DNA of 64,000 nt. Origin: Escherichia sp. E1V33. Lineage in GTDB: Bacteria > Pseudomonadota > Gammaproteobacteria > Enterobacterales > Enterobacteriaceae. Below the pieces are notes generated by a model. The model was not told the origin of the DNA. It saw nothing but the letters and a program-made list of their open reading frames with translations, and did not search any database. The stretch is taken from the NCBI RefSeq assembly GCF_004211955.1, contig NZ_RHJI01000001.1, positions 149,203 through 213,202 on the forward strand, written 5' to 3'. Every line of letters begins with the position of its first letter. Within the stretch, counting starts at the first letter, position 1. Position numbers and translations under genes: made by a program. Below are positions 27,760-35,718 of this stretch, piece after piece.

Positions 27760-28665
27760 ATGCGTCGAACGTTTATCAAAAAAGAAGGCGTCGTCATCAC
27801 GACTCTGGCTCGTTATCTGTTAGGTGAAAAGTGCGGTAATCGATTGAAAACCATAGATGAACTGGCAACAGAATGCCATTCATCGGTTGGTCTGACACAA
27901 GCCGCGCTGAAAACGCTGGAATCAAGCGGCGCGATAAGAATTGAACGCCGCGGGCGCAATGGCAGCTATCTGGTTGAGATGGATAATAAAGCCCTGCTGA
28001 CTCATGTGGATATCAACAACGTGGTATGTGCGATGCCCTTGCCCTACACCCGTTTGTACGAAGGGTTGGCGAGCGGATTGAAAGCCCAGTTTGATGGCAT
28101 TCCTTTTTACTATGCGCATATGCGCGGCGCGGATATTCGCGTGGAGTGTTTACTTAACGGCGTGTATGACATGGCGGTAGTATCCCGCCTGGCGGCAGAA
28201 AGTTATCTCACGCAAAAAGGTTTATGCCTGGCGCTGGAACTTGGACCGCACACCTACGTTGGCGAGCACCAGTTGATTTGCCGTAAAGGCGAGTCCGCAA
28301 ACGTGAAGCGCGTGGGGCTGGATAACCGCTCGGCGGATCAGAAAATCATGACCGATGTCTTTTTTGGCAATAGCGATGTGGAGCGCGTCGACCTCTCATA
28401 TCACGAGAGTTTACAACGCATTGTTAAAGGCGATGTCGATGCGGTTATCTGGAACGTGGTGGCAGAAAGCGAACTGGCCATGCTGGGATTAGAGGCGACG
28501 CCGCTGACGAACGATCCACGATTTTTACAGGCCACTGAAGCTGTGGTACTGACGCGAGCCGATGATTACCCGATGCAACAATTGCTACGTGCGGTTGTTG
28601 ATAAACATGCCCTGCTTGCTCATCAACAGCGAGTAGTCAGTGGGGAACTTGAACCCAGTTATTAA
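27760..28665 (+). CDS. yhfZ: GntR-like transcriptional regulator YhfZ with ligand-binding domain
   Basis: A 301-residue protein, predicted cytoplasmic regulator of the yhf operon. Residues about 10-75 form a winged helix (TIDELATECHSSVGLTQAALK, then IERRGRNGSYLVEMD as the wing). From about 85 onwards the protein looks like a periplasmic-binding-type ligand domain (VVCAMPLPYTRLYEGLASGL; GVYDMAVVSRLAAE; HQLICRKGE; VDAVIWNVV). No good Shine-Dalgarno precedes the ATG; the region is AT-rich and holds two inverted repeats. The ligand is unknown. It is the first gene of yhfZYXW-php-yhfUTS, and autoregulation is likely. Confidence 0.85.
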   Translation: MRRTFIKKEGVVITTLARYLLGEKCGNRLKTIDELATECHSSVGLTQAALKTLESSGAIRIERRGRNGSYLVEMDNKALLTHVDINNVVCAMPLPYTRLYEGLASGLKAQFDGIPFYYAHMRGADIRVECLLNGVYDMAVVSRLAAESYLTQKGLCLALELGPHTYVGEHQLICRKGESANVKRVGLDNRSADQKIMTDVFFGNSDVERVDLSYHESLQRIVKGDVDAVIWNVVAESELAMLGLEATPLTNDPRFLQATEAVVLTRADDYPMQQLLRAVVDKHALLAHQQRVVSGELEPSY

Positions 28666-28681
28666 GCGAAAGGTGTCTTAA

Positions 28682-29044
28682 ATGGAAAACAGACTCAACC
28701 TGCTTTGCGAGGCAGGAGTCATTGATAAGGACATCTGCAAAGGCATGATGCAGGTCGTCAAGGTAATGGAAACTGAATGTCATCTGCCGGTGCGTAGCGA
28801 GCAAGGGACGATGGCGATGACACACATGGCGAGTGCGTTGATGCGCAGTCGTCGTGGTGAGGAAATTGAGCCGCTGGATGACGAATTACTGGCGGAACTG
28901 GCGCAATCCAGTCACTGGCCCGCGATTGTGCAATTGCATCAGGTGTTGTTGAAGGAATTCGCACTGGAAGTTAACCCGTGTGAAGAAGGCTATTTGCTGG
29001 CCAACCTTTATGGATTATGGATGGCTGCTAACGAAGAGGTTTGA
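28682..29044 (+). CDS. yhfY: Stand-alone PRD-domain protein YhfY
   Basis: A 120-residue protein consisting of one PTS-regulation domain (PRD). The segment MTHMASALMRSRRGEEIEPL fits the conserved first-His motif of PRDs (His48, followed by Ala and Arg). PRDs are usually attached to antiterminators or activators and are phosphorylated on His by PTS proteins. A free PRD beside a separate regulator (YhfZ) is unusual. It may sense phosphorylation state and act on YhfZ; that is speculation. It lies 16 bases after yhfZ. Confidence 0.8.
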   Translation: MENRLNLLCEAGVIDKDICKGMMQVVKVMETECHLPVRSEQGTMAMTHMASALMRSRRGEEIEPLDDELLAELAQSSHWPAIVQLHQVLLKEFALEVNPCEEGYLLANLYGLWMAANEEV

Positions 29045-29072
29045 GTCATACGGCAAATCCACGTCACATAAC

Positions 29073-29100
29073 TTAAATATTCAAAAAAATGAATGTTTAA
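29073..29100. promoter_or_regulatory. Putative YhfZ operator 3 (before yhfX)
   Basis: TTAAATATTCA (29073-29083), six A, TGAATGTTTAA (29090-29100): eleven-base arms with one mismatch. On the minus strand its core ATTCATTTTTTTGAAT matches operator 2 at 14 of 16 positions. The centre is about 41 bp before the yhfX ATG, in an 83-base gap inside the operon, suggesting a second regulated promoter. Confidence 0.5.
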
Positions 29101-29127
29101 TTCAAGGAATAGAAACGAGGCAACAAG

Positions 29128-30291
29128 ATGTTTGTAGAAGCATTGAAACGCCAGAACCCAGCACTGATTTCCGCCGCACTAAGCCTGTGGCAACAGGGCA
29201 AGATCGCCCCGGACAGCTGGGTTATCGACGTGGATCAGGTACTGGAAAACGGTAAGCGGCTGATTGAGACTGCGCGGCTTTACGGCATTGAGCTGTATCT
29301 GATGACCAAGCAGTTTGGCCGTAATCCGTGGCTGGCGGAAAAACTTCTGGCGCTGGGCTACAGCGGTATTGTGGCGGTGGATTACAAAGAGGCGCGGGTC
29401 ATGCGCCGCGCCGGTTTGCCGGTAGCGCATCAGGGGCATCTGGTGCAAATCCCTTGTCATCAGGTTTCTGACGCCGTTGAACAGGGAACCGACGTCATCA
29501 CCGTGTTTACCCTCGATAAAGCGCGGGAAGTTTCTGCGGCAGCGGTGAAGGCCGGACGGGTCCAGCCTGTGCTGCTCAAAGTTTATAGCGATAATGATTT
29601 TCTTTATCCGGGGCAGGAGAGCGGTTTTACCCAAAACACGCTGCATGACATTGTCGCTGAAATCCAAAAACTACCCGGATTACATTTAGCGGGACTTACC
29701 CATTTCCCTTGCCTGCTTTGGGATGAAACAAGCGGGAAAGTTTTACCCACGCCGAATCTTCACACGCTGGTACAAACACGAGATCAACTGGCGAAATCTG
29801 GTATTGCGATTGAGCAACTGAATGCCCCTTCAGCGACCAGCTGCACTTCGCTGCCGATGCTGGCGCAATACGGTGTGACTCATGCCGAACCCGGTCATGC
29901 GCTGACGGGCACTATTCCGGCAAACCAGCAGGGCGATCAGCCTGAACGTATCGCGATGCTTTGGTTAAGTGAAATTTCCCACCATTTCCGTGGCGACAGC
30001 TACTGCTACGGCGGCGGTTATTACCGTCGTGGTCATGCCCACCGCGCTCTGGTTTTTACTAAAGAAAATCAAAAGATTACTGAAACAAATCTCAAAACTG
30101 TGGATGACAGCAGTATCGACTACTACCTGCCGTTAGCAGGCGAGTTTCCGGTGAGTAGTGCCGTAGTGTTCTGTTTTCGTACACAGATTTTTGTTACCCG
30201 CAGTGATGTGGTGTTGGTATCGGGTATTCAGCGTGGCGAACCGGAAATCGTCGGTCGTTATGACAGTCTTGGAAACTCTCTGGAGGCGTAA
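29128..30291 (+). CDS. yhfX: PLP enzyme YhfX (alanine racemase-fold)
   Basis: A 387-residue PLP enzyme of the alanine racemase / D-amino-acid aldolase fold. The N-terminal barrel begins [16 protein letters not shown] and the PLP lysine should be Lys61 in [13 protein letters not shown]-terminal beta domain follows ([12 protein letters not shown].. [14 protein letters not shown]). The substrate is unknown; options are an amino acid racemase, a decarboxylase or an aldolase. It is the first enzyme gene of the operon after the internal gap. Its stop overlaps the yhfW start by one base (TAATG). Confidence 0.82.
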
Positions 30292-31517
30292 TGGCGCGAT
30301 TTGTGGTGTTAGTGATTGATAGCTTTGGCGTAGGCGCAATGAAAGATGTCACGCTGGTGCGTCCACAGGATGCCGGGGCGAATACCTGTGGTCACATCCT
30401 GAGCCAGTTGCCGCATTTGCAGCTACCAACGCTGGAGAAGCTGGGGCTAATCAACGCATTGGGTTATGCGCCAGGCGATATGCAACCGTCAGATTCCGCA
30501 ACCTGGGGTGTGGCAGAACTGCAACATGAAGGTGGCGATACCTTTATGGGGCATCAGGAAATTTTAGGCACGCGCCCGTTACCGCCGCTGCGGATGCCTT
30601 TTCGCGATGTGATTGACCGTGTTGAGCAGGCATTAGTTTCCGCCGCTTGGCAGGTGGAGCGCCGTGGCGATGATCTGCAATTTCTGTGGGTCAATCAGGC
30701 GGTTGCGATTGGCGATAATCTCGAGGCGGATTTAGGCCAGGTCTATAACATCACCGCCAATCTCTCTGTGATCTCTTTTGACGACGCAATCAAAATTGGT
30801 CGTATCGTGCGTGAGCAGGTACAGGTCGGTCGGGTCATTACATTTGGTGGCTTGTTAACCGACAGTCAACGCATTCTCGATGCCGCAGAAAGTAAAGAAG
30901 GGTGCTTTATTGGTATCAATGCGCCGCGTTCTGGCGCTTATGACAACGGCTTCCAGGTCGTGCATATGGGCTACGGTGTTGATGAAAAAGTGCAGGTGCC
31001 GCAAAAACTGTATGAAGCGGGCGTGCCAACCGTGCTGGTGGGTAAGGTGGCAGATATCGTCAACAATCCTTATGGCGTGAGCTGGCAAAATCTGGTGGAT
31101 AGCCAGCAGATTATGGATATCACCCTCGACGAATTTATCACCCATCAGACAGCGTTTATTTGCACCAACATTCAGGAAACCGACCTCGCTGGTCACGCAG
31201 AAGACGTCGCACGTTATGCCGAACGTTTGCAGGTCGTTGACCGCAATCTTGCTCTCCTGGTTGAGGCGATGCAGCCAGATGACTGCCTGATCGTCATGGC
31301 TGATCATGGTAACGACCCGACAATCGGTCACAGCCACCATACCCGCGAAGTCGTGCCGGTGCTGGTTTATCAGCAAGGCCTGGCTGCTACTCAGCTAGGT
31401 GTTCGCACCACGCTTTCTGATGTGGGGGCTACCGTGTGTGAATTTTTCCGTGCGCCACCGCCACAAAATGGTCGCTCTTTTCTTTCCTCCCTCCGGTTTG
31501 CAGGAGACACCCTATGA
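30291..31517 (+). CDS. yhfW: Phosphopentomutase-like metalloenzyme YhfW
   Basis: A 408-residue member of the alkaline-phosphatase metalloenzyme superfamily, closest in layout to phosphopentomutase DeoB. It has the N-terminal metal Asp in [15 protein letters not shown], a middle [14 protein letters not shown] that should carry the phosphorylated Thr, and the C-terminal metal cluster [21 protein letters not shown], like DeoB. It therefore probably moves a phosphate within a sugar-phosphate-like compound. It overlaps yhfX by one base and php by four bases. Confidence 0.82.
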
Positions 31518-32392
31518 GTTTTGATCCGACGGGCTACACCTTCGCCCATGAACATCTGCATATTGATCTTTCCGGCTTTAAAAACAACGTGGACTGCCGC
31601 CTTGATCAGTATGCGTTCATTTGCCAGGAGATGAACGACCTGATGGCCCGGGGCGTGCGTAATGTGATTGAGATGACCAACCGCTACATGGGGCGAAATG
31701 CACAATTTATGCTCGATGTGATGCGTGAAACGGGGATCAACGTGGTGGCCTGTACCGGCTATTACCAGGATGCCTTTTTTCCTGAACATGTGGCGACCCG
31801 CAGTGTGCAGGAACTGGCACAAGAGATGGTCGATGAAATTGAACAGGGTATTGATGGCACTGACCTGAAAGCCGGGATCATTGCAGAGATTGGTTCCAGC
31901 GAGGGCAAAATCACGCCGCTGGAAGAGAAGGTGTTTATTGCCGCCGCGCTGGCGCATAACCAGACCGGGCGCCCAATCTCCACGCATACGTCGTTTAGCA
32001 CCATGGGGCTGGAACAACTGGCGCTACTGCAAGCCCGCGGAGTTGATCTTTCGCGCGTCACTGTTGGCCACTGCGATCTGAAAGACAACCTCGACAACAT
32101 TTTGAAGATGATCGATCTCGGCGCGTATGTGCAGTTCGACACCATCGGCAAGAACAGTTACTACCCGGACGAAAAGCGCATTGCGATGCTCCACGCGCTA
32201 CGCGACCGTGGGTTGCTTAACCGCGTCATGCTGTCGATGGATATTACGCGCCGCTCTCATTTAAAAGCCAACGGTGGTTATGGCTATGACTATTTATTGA
32301 CCACCTTTATTCCGCAATTGCGCCAGTCAGGATTCAGTCAGGCCGATGTGGATGTGATGTTACGTGAAAATCCCTCTCAATTTTTCCAATAA
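31514..32392 (+). CDS. php: Phosphotriesterase homology protein Php
   Basis: A 292-residue amidohydrolase-superfamily TIM barrel of the phosphotriesterase/lactonase group. The metal ligands are all present: His12 and His14 ([10 protein letters not shown]), Glu125 ([10 protein letters not shown]) where phosphotriesterase has a carbamylated Lys, His158 (PISTHTS), His186 (VGHCD) and Asp243 (LSMDITRR). The family suggests hydrolysis of a lactone or phosphoester, but the substrate is not known to me. The start overlaps the yhfW stop (ATGA). Confidence 0.88.
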
Positions 32393-32402
32393 GGACAGAC
32401 TA

Positions 32403-32756
32403 ATGAAAAAGATTGGCGTTGCAGGCTTACAGCGTGAGCAGATCAAAAAAACCATTGAAGCGACGGCTCCAGGCTGTTTTGAAGTTTTCATTCACAACGA
32501 CATGGAAGCGGCAATGAAGGTGAAATCCGGGCAACTGGATTATTACATCGGCGCGTGTAATACCGGTGCGGGCGCGGCATTGTCGATTGCCATCGCGGTG
32601 ATTGGCTATAACAAAAGTTGCACCATTGCCAAGCCGGGTATCAAAGCGAAAGACGAACATATCGCCAAAATGATCGCCGAAGGGAAAGTGGCGTTTGGGC
32701 TTTCCGTTGAGCACGTCGAACACGCGATTCCGATGCTGATTAACCATCTGAAATAA
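32403..32756 (+). CDS. yhfU: Small protein YhfU (DUF2620)
   Basis: A 117-residue soluble protein of unknown function. It has an alternating beta-alpha pattern (KKIGVAGLQREQIKKTIEAT; DYYIGACNTGAGAALSIAIA) that could be a small Rossmann-like or PTS IIB-like fold. I chose ATG 32403, preceded by AAGGA; an upstream start in the php end would add 13 residues. It sits directly before the membrane protein gene yhfT, so a role as a transporter partner is plausible but not shown. Confidence 0.8.
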   Translation: MKKIGVAGLQREQIKKTIEATAPGCFEVFIHNDMEAAMKVKSGQLDYYIGACNTGAGAALSIAIAVIGYNKSCTIAKPGIKAKDEHIAKMIAEGKVAFGLSVEHVEHAIPMLINHLK

Positions 32757-32767
32757 AAGGCACGACT

Positions 32768-34072
32768 ATGGATCTGTATATTCAGATTATCGTGGTGGCG
32801 TGCCTGACGGGTATGACATCGCTTCTGGCGCATCGCTCGGCAGCCGTTTTTCATGACGGTATCCGCCCGATCCTGCCGCAACTGATTGAAGGCTATATGA
32901 ACCGTCGCGAGGCGGGGAGTATCGCTTTTGGTCTGAGCATTGGTTTTGTGGCCTCGGTGGGGATCTCCTTTACCCTGAAAACCGGGCTACTCAACGCATG
33001 GCTACTCTTTCTTCCTACCGATATCCTCGGCGTACTGGCGATAAACAGCCTGATGGCGTTTGGTCTTGGCGCTATCTGGGGCGTGTTGATCCTCACCTGT
33101 CTGTTGCCGGTAAACCAGCTGCTGACCGCACTGCCGGTGGATGTATTAGGTAGTCTGGGGGAATTAAGCTCGCCGGTGGTTTCAGCTTTTGCACTGTTCC
33201 CGTTGGTGGCGATTTTCTACCAGTTTGGCTGGAAGCAAAGTCTGATCGCTGCCGTGGTTGTGCTGATGACCCGTGTGGTGGTAGTGCGCTATTTCCCACA
33301 TCTTAACCCTGAATCCATAGAAATCTTTATTGGCATGGTGATGCTGCTGGGGATCGCGATAACTCACGACCTGCGTCATCGTGATGAAAATGACATCGAT
33401 GCCAGCGGGCTTTCGGTGTTTGAAGAACGCACGTCGCGGATTATCAAAAACTTACCGTATATCGCTATTGTTGGGGCACTGATTGCCGCCGTTGCCAGCA
33501 TGAAGATTTTTGCTGGCAGTGAAGTGTCGATCTTCACCCTTGAGAAAGCATATTCCGCAGGCGTAACGCCGGAACAATCACAAACGCTGATTAATCAGGC
33601 GGCACTGGCGGAATTTATGCGCGGGCTGGGTTTTGTGCCGTTGATTGCCACCACCGCGTTAGCCACTGGCGTGTATGCGGTTGCGGGCTTTACCTTTGTT
33701 TATGCGGTGGGCTATCTCTCGCCAAATCCGATGGTTGCAGCAGTATTAGGCGCAGTGGTTATTTCGGCAGAAGTGCTATTGCTTCGTTCGATCGGCAAAT
33801 GGCTGGGGCGTTACCCATCGGTACGTAATGCGTCGGATAACATCCGTAACGCCATGAATATGCTGATGGAAGTGGCGTTGCTGGTCGGTTCGATTTTCGC
33901 AGCAATCAAAATGGCAGGCTATACCGGATTCTCTATCGCGGTTGCCATTTACTTCCTCAACGAATCTCTGGGCCGTCCGGTACAGAAAATGGCGGCACCG
34001 GTCGTAGCAGTAATGATCACCGGCATCCTGCTGAATGTTCTTTACTGGCTTGGTCTGTTCGTTCCGGCTTAA
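32768..34072 (+). CDS. yhfT: Membrane transport protein YhfT (putative)
   Basis: A 434-residue integral membrane protein with about 10-12 hydrophobic segments (e.g. IIVVACLTGMTSLLAH, TILA-poor loops, VALLVGSIFAAIKMAGYTGF, MITGILLNVLYWLGLFVPA). It has no recognised transporter motif. Being in an operon of catabolic enzymes and adjacent to YhfU, it is probably the importer of the pathway substrate. With YhfU (small, IIB-like) and YhfY (PRD) the set recalls a PTS permease, but I see no phosphorylation-site signature to prove it. Confidence 0.8.
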   Translation: MDLYIQIIVVACLTGMTSLLAHRSAAVFHDGIRPILPQLIEGYMNRREAGSIAFGLSIGFVASVGISFTLKTGLLNAWLLFLPTDILGVLAINSLMAFGLGAIWGVLILTCLLPVNQLLTALPVDVLGSLGELSSPVVSAFALFPLVAIFYQFGWKQSLIAAVVVLMTRVVVVRYFPHLNPESIEIFIGMVMLLGIAITHDLRHRDENDIDASGLSVFEERTSRIIKNLPYIAIVGALIAAVASMKIFAGSEVSIFTLEKAYSAGVTPEQSQTLINQAALAEFMRGLGFVPLIATTALATGVYAVAGFTFVYAVGYLSPNPMVAAVLGAVVISAEVLLLRSIGKWLGRYPSVRNASDNIRNAMNMLMEVALLVGSIFAAIKMAGYTGFSIAVAIYFLNESLGRPVQKMAAPVVAVMITGILLNVLYWLGLFVPA

Positions 34073-34083
34073 GGAAGGCACCT

Positions 34084-35169
34084 ATGAAGACGTTTCCTTT
34101 GCAGAGCCTGACTCTTACTGAAGCGCAGCATAAGCAGTTTGCGCTGGTGGACTCGATTTGCCGCCATTTCCCCGGCAGCGAGTTTCTTACTGGCGGTGAT
34201 TTAGGGTTAACTCCAGGGCTGAATCAACCGCGTATTACCCAACGGGTGGAGCAGGTGCTGGCTGACGCGTTTCATGCGCAAGCGGCGGCGCTGGTACAGG
34301 GCGCGGGTACTGGAGCGATTCGTACGGCGCTGGCGGCTTTGCTCAAACCGGGACAGCGTCTTCTGGTGCATGACGCGCCTGTTTACCCGACGACTCAGGT
34401 CATTATTGAACAGATGGGGCTGACGCTTATCACTGCTGATTTCAATGACCTGTCGGCACTTAAGCAAGTTGTCGAAGAGCAACAACCGGATGCGGCGCTG
34501 GTGCAGCATACGCGCCAGCAGCCGCAGGACAGCTACATTCTGGCAGATGTGCTGGCAACGTTGCGCGCGGCAGGTGTGCCAGCGTTAACCGATGACAACT
34601 ATGCGGTGATGAAAGTGGCGCGAATTGGCTGCGAATGTGGGGCAAATGTCTCGACATTTTCCTGCTTCAAGCTGTTTGGGCCAGAGGGTGTTGGCGCGGT
34701 GGTAGGCGATGCCGATGCTATTAGTCGGATTCGCGCCACGCTCTATTCCGGCGGCAGCCAGATTCAGGGCGTGCAGGCGTTAGAAGTATTGCGTGGTCTG
34801 GTGTTTGCGCCAGTGATGCACGCGGTGCAGGCGGGGGTATCTGAGCGGTTGTTAGCTTTGCTTAATGGTGGTGCGGTGCCGGAAGTTAAAAGCGCCGTCA
34901 TTGCTAATGCACAGTCGAAGGTATTGATTGTGGAGTTTCATCAGCCGATTGCCGCCAGAGTGCTGGAAGAAGCGCAGAAACGCGGCGCGTTGCCTTATCC
35001 GGTGGGAGCGGAGTCGAAATATGAGATTCCGCCGCTCTTCTATCGACTTTCCGGAACGTTCCGTCAGGCGAATCCGCAATTAGAACATTGTGCGATTCGC
35101 ATTAACCCGAATCGCAGCGGTGAAGAGACGGTGCTGCGGATTTTGCGTGAGAGTATTAGCAGCGTTTAA
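34084..35169 (+). CDS. yhfS: PLP-dependent aminotransferase-fold protein YhfS
   Basis: A 361-residue fold-type I PLP enzyme. The PLP-binding Asp lies in ALTDDNYAVMKV (about 170-171) and the Schiff-base Lys is most likely Lys196 in STFSCFKLFGPEGVGAV. The overall order (GAGTGAIR cofactor loop, then DNY, then SCFK) resembles class V or Cys/Met-metabolism enzymes, so transaminase, lyase or selenocysteine-synthase-like chemistry are all possible. It is the last gene of the yhf operon, 12 bases after yhfT. Confidence 0.82.
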   Translation: MKTFPLQSLTLTEAQHKQFALVDSICRHFPGSEFLTGGDLGLTPGLNQPRITQRVEQVLADAFHAQAAALVQGAGTGAIRTALAALLKPGQRLLVHDAPVYPTTQVIIEQMGLTLITADFNDLSALKQVVEEQQPDAALVQHTRQQPQDSYILADVLATLRAAGVPALTDDNYAVMKVARIGCECGANVSTFSCFKLFGPEGVGAVVGDADAISRIRATLYSGGSQIQGVQALEVLRGLVFAPVMHAVQAGVSERLLALLNGGAVPEVKSAVIANAQSKVLIVEFHQPIAARVLEEAQKRGALPYPVGAESKYEIPPLFYRLSGTFRQANPQLEHCAIRINPNRSGEETVLRILRESISSV

Positions 35170-35210
35170 TCTTTTGAACGATATTTTCGAAAAGAGTGCA
35201 GAAACAAATA

Positions 35211-35234
35211 CGCCCTCGGGTAATCCCGAGGGCG
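35211..35234. terminator. Strong hairpin between yhfS and yhfL
   Basis: CGCCCTCGGG (35211-35220), TAAT, CCCGAGGGCG (35225-35234): ten perfect base pairs between convergent genes. No T-run follows in either direction, so it is terminator-like rather than a textbook terminator. It sits exactly where the frl cluster lies in K-12. Confidence 0.6.
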
Positions 35235-35275
35235 TCAGGCAATTAAACCGGCGTTAACCGATTTCTGTCAATGAC

Positions 35276-35443
35276 TTACTGTGCAGTAGGACCGCAGCCG
35301 CCAATGATTTTAGAAATAGAAATTGCCGGGTGCAGCAGGTAGTCGTAAGAGCAGTTCTTTTCACGGTTTTCAATATGACCAGTACATGCAGTTAATGTTG
35401 CCAGTACCGCACCAACCAGTGCTACTTTAATAAACTTGTTCAT
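35276..35443 (-). CDS. yhfL: Small lipoprotein YhfL
   Basis: A 55-residue predicted lipoprotein. The signal ends in a lipobox with Cys at position 20 (VLATLTACTGH), followed by a short mature part with two more Cys (NCSYDYLLHP, IGGCGPTAQ) that could form a disulfide. The function is unknown. ATG 35443 is preceded by AGGGAATG. It is a single small gene on the minus strand, convergent with yhfS. In K-12 frlA would lie beyond its 3' end, but here yhfS follows directly. Confidence 0.88.
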   Translation of the reverse strand: MNKFIKVALVGAVLATLTACTGHIENREKNCSYDYLLHPAISISKIIGGCGPTAQ

Positions 35444-35671
35444 TTTCATTCCCTATGTAAAATATATCGAGTAATATTCATTGATTATGTGAATATAAGC
35501 AAACAGCTCGCTAAAGACGATACAGGAATATCTATTATGCGTCAGTGAATGGACTATGAATATTATGATTATATTTGTAAGCCGCTGTAACTGTAGGACG
35601 TTATTAAACTAAATTAGTTAAAAGTTTGTTTTATGTCTGGTGAAAATAAACATTAATATAAGTATGTTTGT
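35444..35671. other. AT-rich intergenic region upstream of yhfL
   Basis: About 230 AT-rich bases between the yhfL start and the cysG terminator. It should hold the yhfL promoter. I see no further gene or clear operator in it. Confidence 0.4.
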
Positions 35672-35703
35672 AAATAAAAAAAGGCCAGAAATATCCGGCC
35701 TTA
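35672..35703 (-). terminator. cysG (nir operon) terminator
   Basis: Read on the minus strand: AAGGCC, a ten-base loop, GGCCTT, then TTTTTTTATTTA. It is a rho-independent terminator for the nirBDC-cysG transcript, 16 bases past the cysG stop. Confidence 0.8.
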
Positions 35704-35718
35704 GTTGATTTTTTTAAA

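Follow-up and report, generated by a model that had tools for sequence, protein, structure and literature searches.

The yhfZYXW-php-yhfUTS operon of Escherichia contains a widely conserved gene set with a possible link to the phosphotransferase system

The 64,000-nucleotide stretch of Escherichia sp. E1V33 DNA considered here (contig NZ_RHJI01000001.1, positions 149,203 to 213,202; referred to below as the window) carries the yhfZ, yhfY, yhfX, yhfW, php, yhfU, yhfT and yhfS genes. All eight open reading frames (ORFs) were located at 27760-35169 on the + strand. A sequence-only reading of this DNA had placed eight tightly spaced genes at these same positions, and the spacings, from yhfZ to yhfS, are 16, 83, -1, -4, 10, 11 and 11 nt. 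Searches of the open-access PubMed Central (PMC) literature turned up no work on what the yhf operon does.

The first gene, yhfZ (27760..28665, +), encodes a GntR-type helix-turn-helix domain followed by YhfZ_C (PF14502 and PF14503; NCBIfam NF041241 373 bits, cut-off 260); it is presumed to be a ligand-sensing regulator, and a solved structure is available (2ozz). The product of yhfY (28682..29044, +) is a stand-alone PRD protein, with matches below cut-off to PRD (E 0.011) and to the EF_0829 family TIGR03582 (5.3e-6). Downstream, yhfX (29128..30291, +) encodes a fold type III pyridoxal phosphate (PLP) enzyme with an alanine-racemase-like N-domain and YhfX_C (PF01168, PF21279; PDB 4kbx), yhfW (30291..31517, +) a phosphopentomutase-like phosphomutase (PF01676; NF009049 732.5, cut-off 254), and php (31514..32392, +) a phosphotriesterase-like binuclear metal hydrolase (PF02126 8.7e-146; PDB 4lef/1bf6). 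The DUF2620 protein YhfU (32403..32756, +, ATG at 32403) has a predicted RpiB/LacAB fold and a Cys52-x-[TS]-G-x-G loop; YhfT (32768..34072, +; PF10797 1.1e-180) is a polytopic membrane protein, predicted to be a transporter of no recognised fold; and YhfS (34084..35169, +; PF22475, PF00155, PF01053; PDB 4j8l) is a fold type I PLP enzyme of the gamma-lyase/aminotransferase-like type. The family assignments made from sequence alone hold for seven of the genes. For YhfY the case is mixed, since the E. coli-type protein of the window scores 16.5 bits against Pfam PRD, below the cut-off of 23 bits, whereas all four relatives scanned lie above it (34.9-49.7).

This is an operon that is already named and is carried by most E. 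coli genomes. The yhf operon of E. coli K-12 (yhfZYXW-php-yhfUTS) has the same genes and nothing different in kind: the MG1655 annotation gives the same eight names in identical order, and all eight lengths are equal. The ratio of nonsynonymous to synonymous substitution rates (dN/dS) relative to MG1655 is 0.040 for yhfZ, 0.074 for yhfY, 0.112 for yhfX, 0.080 for yhfW, 0.024 for php, 0.000 for yhfU, 0.005 for yhfT and 0.064 for yhfS. YhfU is identical to its MG1655 counterpart at 117/117 residues, and the constraint on YhfU and YhfT is comparable to that on trpS (0.007). Because of the equal lengths and low dN/dS, these ORFs are not chance frames; the eight genes are intact and under purifying selection. 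Nucleotide identity across the region is 93.0% with MG1655 and 93.7% with E. whittamii. Among 5426 complete E. coli genomes, 5012 carry 80% or more of the region at a single site, 335 carry less and 79 show no match. E. coli O157:H7 str. SS17 (NZ_CP008805.1) appears to have lost the yhf genes, since it has no more than a 48-bp match at the query's end.

The sequence-only reading proposed an uptake and catabolism unit that includes a stand-alone PRD protein; the genome-neighbourhood comparison supports this and shows the unit to be conserved. Scanning 84,980 species genomes with a YhfT alignment gave 154 confirmed relatives, and the 80 best of these were retained. The yhf set recurs in Bacillota, Fusobacteriota, Spirochaetota, one Thermotogota metagenome-assembled genome and gammaproteobacteria; in a plasmid of Cetobacterium somerae all eight genes form a single run with an amidase-type gene. 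In genome samples, YhfT scored above cut-off in 24/398 Bacilli, in 4/299 Pseudomonadota (the window's own genome included) and in 1/391 Clostridia, this one being the centre genome. The distribution is therefore patchy but wide. The same gene partners recur across these five phyla in differing orders.

Gene presence was tabulated for the 83 of 108 loci that have at least 6 kb before and at least 6.5 kb after yhfT. The yhfY, yhfX, yhfU and yhfT genes were present in 83/83, php in 82/83 and yhfZ in 80/83, compared with 73/83 for yhfW and 69/83 for yhfS. From these counts we define the core as yhfZ, yhfY, yhfX, php, yhfU and yhfT, with yhfW and yhfS as accessory genes. No YhfW-like ORF was present anywhere in the ten loci that lack yhfW. 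The idea of a plausible complete route using all eight genes is therefore not supported as it stands, as yhfW is absent from 10 and yhfS from 14 of the 83 loci; for the same reason the common chemistry would be that of YhfX and Php. The small protein and membrane protein pair recognised in the window is supported, with yhfU immediately 5' of yhfT in 106/108 loci. Neighbour counts given below refer to 107 loci, a set that includes the window's own locus three times (window, L001 and L002, which overlap) and omits L013, where yhfT was missed by the ORF caller and MurQ and MupG were identified separately. Some loci are not independent: L042 and L096 come from one genome, L046 and L088 have identical YhfT, and L027 and L050 belong to one species.

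Residue conservation was counted after length filtering and removal of duplicates, the reference being included each time; this left 86 rows for YhfY (of 89 labelled ORFs), 90 for YhfU (of 97), 96 for YhfX (of 103), 82 for YhfS (of 87), 95 for Php (of 103), 85 for YhfW (of 90) and 25 for the amidase-type gene (of 31). The catalytic residues described as intact in the window are kept in every aligned relative of the four enzymes. Php has the six metal ligands H12, H14, E125, H158, H186 and D243 in 95/95 and, with these binuclear metal ligands and its PF02126 domain, belongs to the phosphotriesterase family. YhfX Lys61, the PLP lysine, is kept in 96/96, and YhfS Lys196 and Asp170 in 82/82. When YhfW is aligned with phosphopentomutase 3m8w, D10, D298, H302, D338, H339 and H350 are found in 85/85 and position 84 is Thr in 68 and Ser in 17, so that metal ligands and a Thr/Ser nucleophile are present throughout. 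The catalytic role of the listed residues of the four enzymes is partly presumed. YhfW remained below the deoB equivalog cut-off (TIGR01696 147.4, cut-off 341.2); by its sequence it is a phosphopentomutase family member but need not be DeoB itself. In some lineages the unit has a ninth member, an amidase-signature-like gene found in locus L006 (16294-17325) and in 29 other loci, mostly between yhfT and php. Its Pfam amidase score is below cut-off (21.3 bits, cut-off 27), and Lys44, Ser93 and Ser117, presumably the Ser-Ser-Lys triad of amidases, are kept in 25/25 rows.

The predicted structure of YhfU has the Rossmann-like fold of the RpiB/LacAB superfamily; structure predictions preceded the diverse alignment of relatives. 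In an hhalign comparison with five RpiB/DhuI-type sequences, YhfU scored 36.2 (E 1.5e-5, 61 columns; the best of 30 shuffles reached 19.8), and Cys52 aligned with the active-site Cys loop of RpiB (Cys-x-T-G-x-G). Within the family, Cys52, Gly55, Gly57, Asp33 and Asp46 are kept in 90/90, and residue 54 is Thr in 79 and Ser in 11. YhfU thus resembles RpiB/LacAB in fold and Cys loop, and differs in its short length of 117 residues, in having no invariant His or Arg and in being genetically tied to a membrane protein. In the 90 rows no Arg column reaches 60% identity and the best His column has 78/90; the His and Arg to which catalysis and phosphate binding are ascribed in RpiB consequently have no invariant counterpart. 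For this reason YhfU was not classed as an RpiB isomerase. No gene of the RpiB/LacAB family was found in the window's own genome.

A link between the yhf genes and the phosphoenolpyruvate:sugar phosphotransferase system (PTS) is suggested by the genes that lie downstream. In the PRD protein YhfY, His48 and Arg55 are kept in 86/86 relatives. An HPr gene in the same orientation as the yhf genes lies 4.4-6.5 kb past yhfT in 9/107 loci (L014, L017, L019, L020, L103, L104, L105, L108 and L109), and an Enzyme I gene lies downstream in 4/107 (L014, L064, L108 and L109). Pfam confirmed 6/6 HPr proteins scanned (the L108 frame is truncated) and 2/2 Enzyme I proteins; the HPr of L020 was identified by a Pfam family search of its contig. 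The density of HPr in 17 carrier genomes (65 in 67.8 Mb), all 17 of which encode HPr, gives an expectation of 1.3 in the 70 non-gammaproteobacterial loci, or 0.23 for the same strand within 7 kb downstream, and Poisson probabilities of 9e-6 and 4e-12, respectively, for at least nine occurrences. The HPr-bearing loci occupy four separate places on the YhfT tree; counted as four independent events, the probability is 9e-5. Enzyme I is encoded by 39/40 carriers tested compared with 70/196 Clostridia (Fisher 2.5e-14; 2.3e-6 when limited to the 17 carriers classed as clostridial). YhfY His48 and YhfU Cys52, invariant in their alignments (86/86 and 90/90), are candidate phosphorylation sites.

Several Bacillota also encode NagB beside the unit: the gene is on the same strand, just downstream, in 12/107 loci, and elsewhere nearby in three further loci. 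The two NagB proteins scanned were above the nagB equivalog cut-off (297.0 and 317.7, cut-off 236.9). With moderate confidence, the compound class can be described as an amino-sugar-type conjugate. The wording is kept this general because other neighbours point elsewhere and none of these genes stands beside the gammaproteobacterial operon.

We propose, with a probability of about 0.48, that yhf is a PTS-linked module that imports and degrades an amino-sugar-type conjugate, with YhfT and YhfU as the predicted transporter. The proposal rests on the observed conservation, gene order and intact residues, on the fold predicted for YhfU and on the genes for HPr, Enzyme I and NagB that accompany the unit. 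The MurQ/MupG, NamZ, PIG-L and PF00144 neighbours and the similarity of YhfU to the SFCGS protein, both described below, also speak for it. YhfZ would sense the ligand and induce the yhf genes. The lone PRD of YhfY would take a phosphoryl group from HPr at the invariant His48 and so couple the unit to PTS status, and YhfU with YhfT would import the compound, probably in phosphorylated form. Php, in some lineages together with the amidase-signature enzyme, might then hydrolyse an acyl, ester or lactone bond, and YhfX, with YhfS where present, could carry out PLP chemistry on the amino-acid-like part, namely racemisation or epimerisation followed by elimination. YhfW would relocate the phosphate where needed, and the remaining amino-sugar phosphate would be deaminated by NagB where it is encoded next door.

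Several observations weigh against this proposal. YhfT scored no better than its reversed null against either of two PTS EIIC families (EIIC-GAT 18.7, reversed 19.4; PTS_EIIC 18.5, reversed 19.3). HPr is not found in 98/107 loci nor NagB just downstream in 95/107, and the gammaproteobacterial loci, that of the window included, have neither beside the yhf genes. The contrast in Enzyme I between carriers and Clostridia is confounded by lineage and genome size, and the presence of Enzyme I and HPr in carriers is not specific, such genes being common. The one carrier in which no Enzyme I N-domain was detected, Anaeromonas frigoriresistens (L017, G1203), has an HPr gene after yhf and nagB; the missing domain may reflect a gap in this draft genome. 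The PTS link may be purely regulatory, acting through YhfY. The NagB and peptidoglycan-related neighbours may reflect operon shuffling; the NagB, PF00144 and MurQ figures are raw counts without a background rate. Finally, other end products are hinted at by the KDPG aldolase and sugar kinase next to yhf in L052 and by the transketolase and transaldolase that accompany yhf-type genes in one table on an L. rhamnosus clinical clade (PMC7513527). That table lists DUF2620, PRD proteins, YhfX-family and phosphotriesterase-related proteins together with these two enzymes; that the genes are neighbours is suggested solely by close accession numbers.

An alternative that is possible, though unlikely, is that YhfU is a catalytic sugar isomerase of the RpiB/LacAB type in a pentose-type route: YhfW would make a 5-phosphate, YhfU would isomerise it and the product would enter the pentose phosphate pathway, the PTS link being regulation through the YhfY PRD. 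The predicted RpiB fold of YhfU with its aligned Cys loop, the phosphopentomutase family membership of YhfW and the L. rhamnosus table (PMC7513527) are consistent with such a route, as are two genes beside the unit in L023, one for a PfkB-type sugar kinase and one of the pseudouridine-5'-phosphate-glycosidase family. However, yhfW is missing from 10/83 loci in which yhfU is always present, the His and Arg ascribed to RpiB function have no invariant match, and yhfU is linked to a membrane protein rather than to enzymes (106/108). Furthermore, a protein related to YhfU occurs in a DgaE/DgaF-type cluster, and the steps named for that cluster do not call for an isomerase of this kind.

This relative is the SFCGS protein (PF14272/TIGR03577), which hhalign aligned with YhfU over its full length, Cys on Cys (33.3, E 4.9e-5; best of 30 shuffles 17.8, reversed sequence 11.6). 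In L111, SFCGS is found with TIGR03579, TIGR03580 and TIGR03583 proteins, a DgaE-family lyase (TIGR01437 575.8, cut-off 385.3; DgaE equivalog NF047797 379.1, under the cut-off of 600) and DgaF (NF047796 383.7, cut-off 300). L110-L114 contain clusters in which SFCGS and DUF4310-4312 occur together with an amidohydrolase, DgaF and a lyase of the DgaE family. The substrate of the DgaE route is phosphorylated, yet among the proteins scanned there, which represent part of the ORFs, no EII or kinase was recognised. The EF_0829-EF_0839 type of cluster (SFCGS, DUF4310-4312, amidohydrolase, DgaE/DgaF-like) shares with yhf a PRD-type regulator, a Cys-loop small protein, membrane proteins, a metal hydrolase and a PLP enzyme; it differs in ending with a KDPG-type aldolase and in having no YhfX, YhfW or Php, and its membrane proteins are not shown to be related to YhfT (DUF4310 27.9, reversed 17.8; DUF4311 16.2, reversed 14.8). 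By analogy with SFCGS, the small Cys-loop protein would belong to the transporter. No relevant-looking paper on SFCGS/DUF4310-4312 was found among the matches listed.

A bolder form of the PTS-linked proposal, which we regard as unlikely, is that YhfY, YhfU and YhfT constitute an overlooked class of PTS permease. Phosphoryl groups would pass from phosphoenolpyruvate to Enzyme I, HPr, His48 of YhfY (in the EIIA role), Cys52 of YhfU (in the EIIB role) and then to the sugar via YhfT, a new EIIC fold, and SFCGS with DUF4310-4312 would be its sister. Like PTS permeases (EIIA/EIIB/EIIC), yhf comprises a PRD protein and a Cys-loop small protein beside a membrane protein, and in some lineages HPr and Enzyme I are encoded within the operon or next to it; unlike them, it has no recognisable EIIA, no detectable EIIC similarity in YhfT and an RpiB-like topology in YhfU. 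The YhfT model is helical and of modest confidence (pLDDT, a per-residue model confidence score, 75.5), and with this poor model Foldseek gave no fold match at E <= 0.001. In G433 and G600 (L107 and L106) YhfT is longer, about 500 residues, with an insertion near profile position 172-190. If this class exists, with SFCGS as its sister, the source of the phosphorylated substrate would be explained in the DgaE/DgaF-type pathway, which has no recognised EII or kinase.

It is rather improbable that the unit serves cell-wall recycling, that is, the salvage of a peptidoglycan-derived amino sugar or D-amino-acid peptide fragment in which YhfX acts as racemase, Php or the amidase cuts an amide and the product feeds the N-acetylmuramic acid (MurNAc)/N-acetylglucosamine route; this may be the PTS-linked proposal with a named substrate. 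MurQ and MupG adjoin the yhf genes in L013 (MurQ 397.6, cut-off 302), L028 and L047. PF00144 hydrolases occur in 12/107 loci, L026 has both GH3 and PF00144 and L032 is listed with GH3/PF00144 hydrolases; M23 peptidase is found in L015 and L018. NamZ exo-muramidase and a PIG-L deacetylase are encoded in L089, upstream of yhfZ, together with ABC-type transporter-sized genes, possibly a complete MurNAc-type scavenging set. Yet such neighbours are a minority, concentrated in Bacillota, are counted without a background rate, and are absent (MurQ, PF00144 and the like) beside the gammaproteobacterial operon; in L027 the NCBIfam PBP4B score is 316.5, under the cut-off of 385. Pointing away from amino sugars, besides the L052 and L023 genes named above, are the nucleoside hydrolase of L026, the Ugp-like ABC transporter of L079 and the methionine-synthase-like genes of L022 and L029.

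That these are metabolic genes unrelated in pathway and held together by shared regulation is very improbable: accessory genes come and go and an 83-nt gap separates yhfY from yhfX, but the same partners recur in five phyla in differing orders and dN/dS is low. The gap (29045-29127) contains an AT-rich 11-bp hairpin (z -2.06; 6/200 shuffles equally stable). One table in PMC4448311 gives the operon as php, yhfS, T, U, W and X, a list in which yhfY and yhfZ do not appear.

At the other end of the operon, a possible terminator with an 11-bp GC-rich stem lies 41 nt past yhfS (35210..35235, entered with no strand and listed by the pattern scan for the - strand only). It is a weak candidate because the region has 13 terminator-like sites, close to the 9.3 +- 3.3 of shuffled sequences. 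In MG1655 yhfS is directly followed by the fructoselysine genes frlR and frlD. The window lacks them at this site (35170-35718), cysG being the first gene detected after yhfS.

In conclusion, the interpretation first made from the letters of the window is partly supported, and the present analysis extends it by the fold predicted for YhfU, the PTS link, the NagB association and the amidase-type gene. What is new for this operon is how widely it is conserved, a minimal core, an RpiB-like fold predicted for DUF2620, the association with PTS genes and NagB, and the likeness to the SFCGS system. The comparison yields a set that can be tested: a six-gene core, two candidate phosphorylation sites, a fold prediction for DUF2620 and a likely compound class. 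If YhfU and YhfT do transfer phosphoryl groups, a new PTS class would so far have escaped notice, both in the best-studied of all bacteria and in four or more further phyla.

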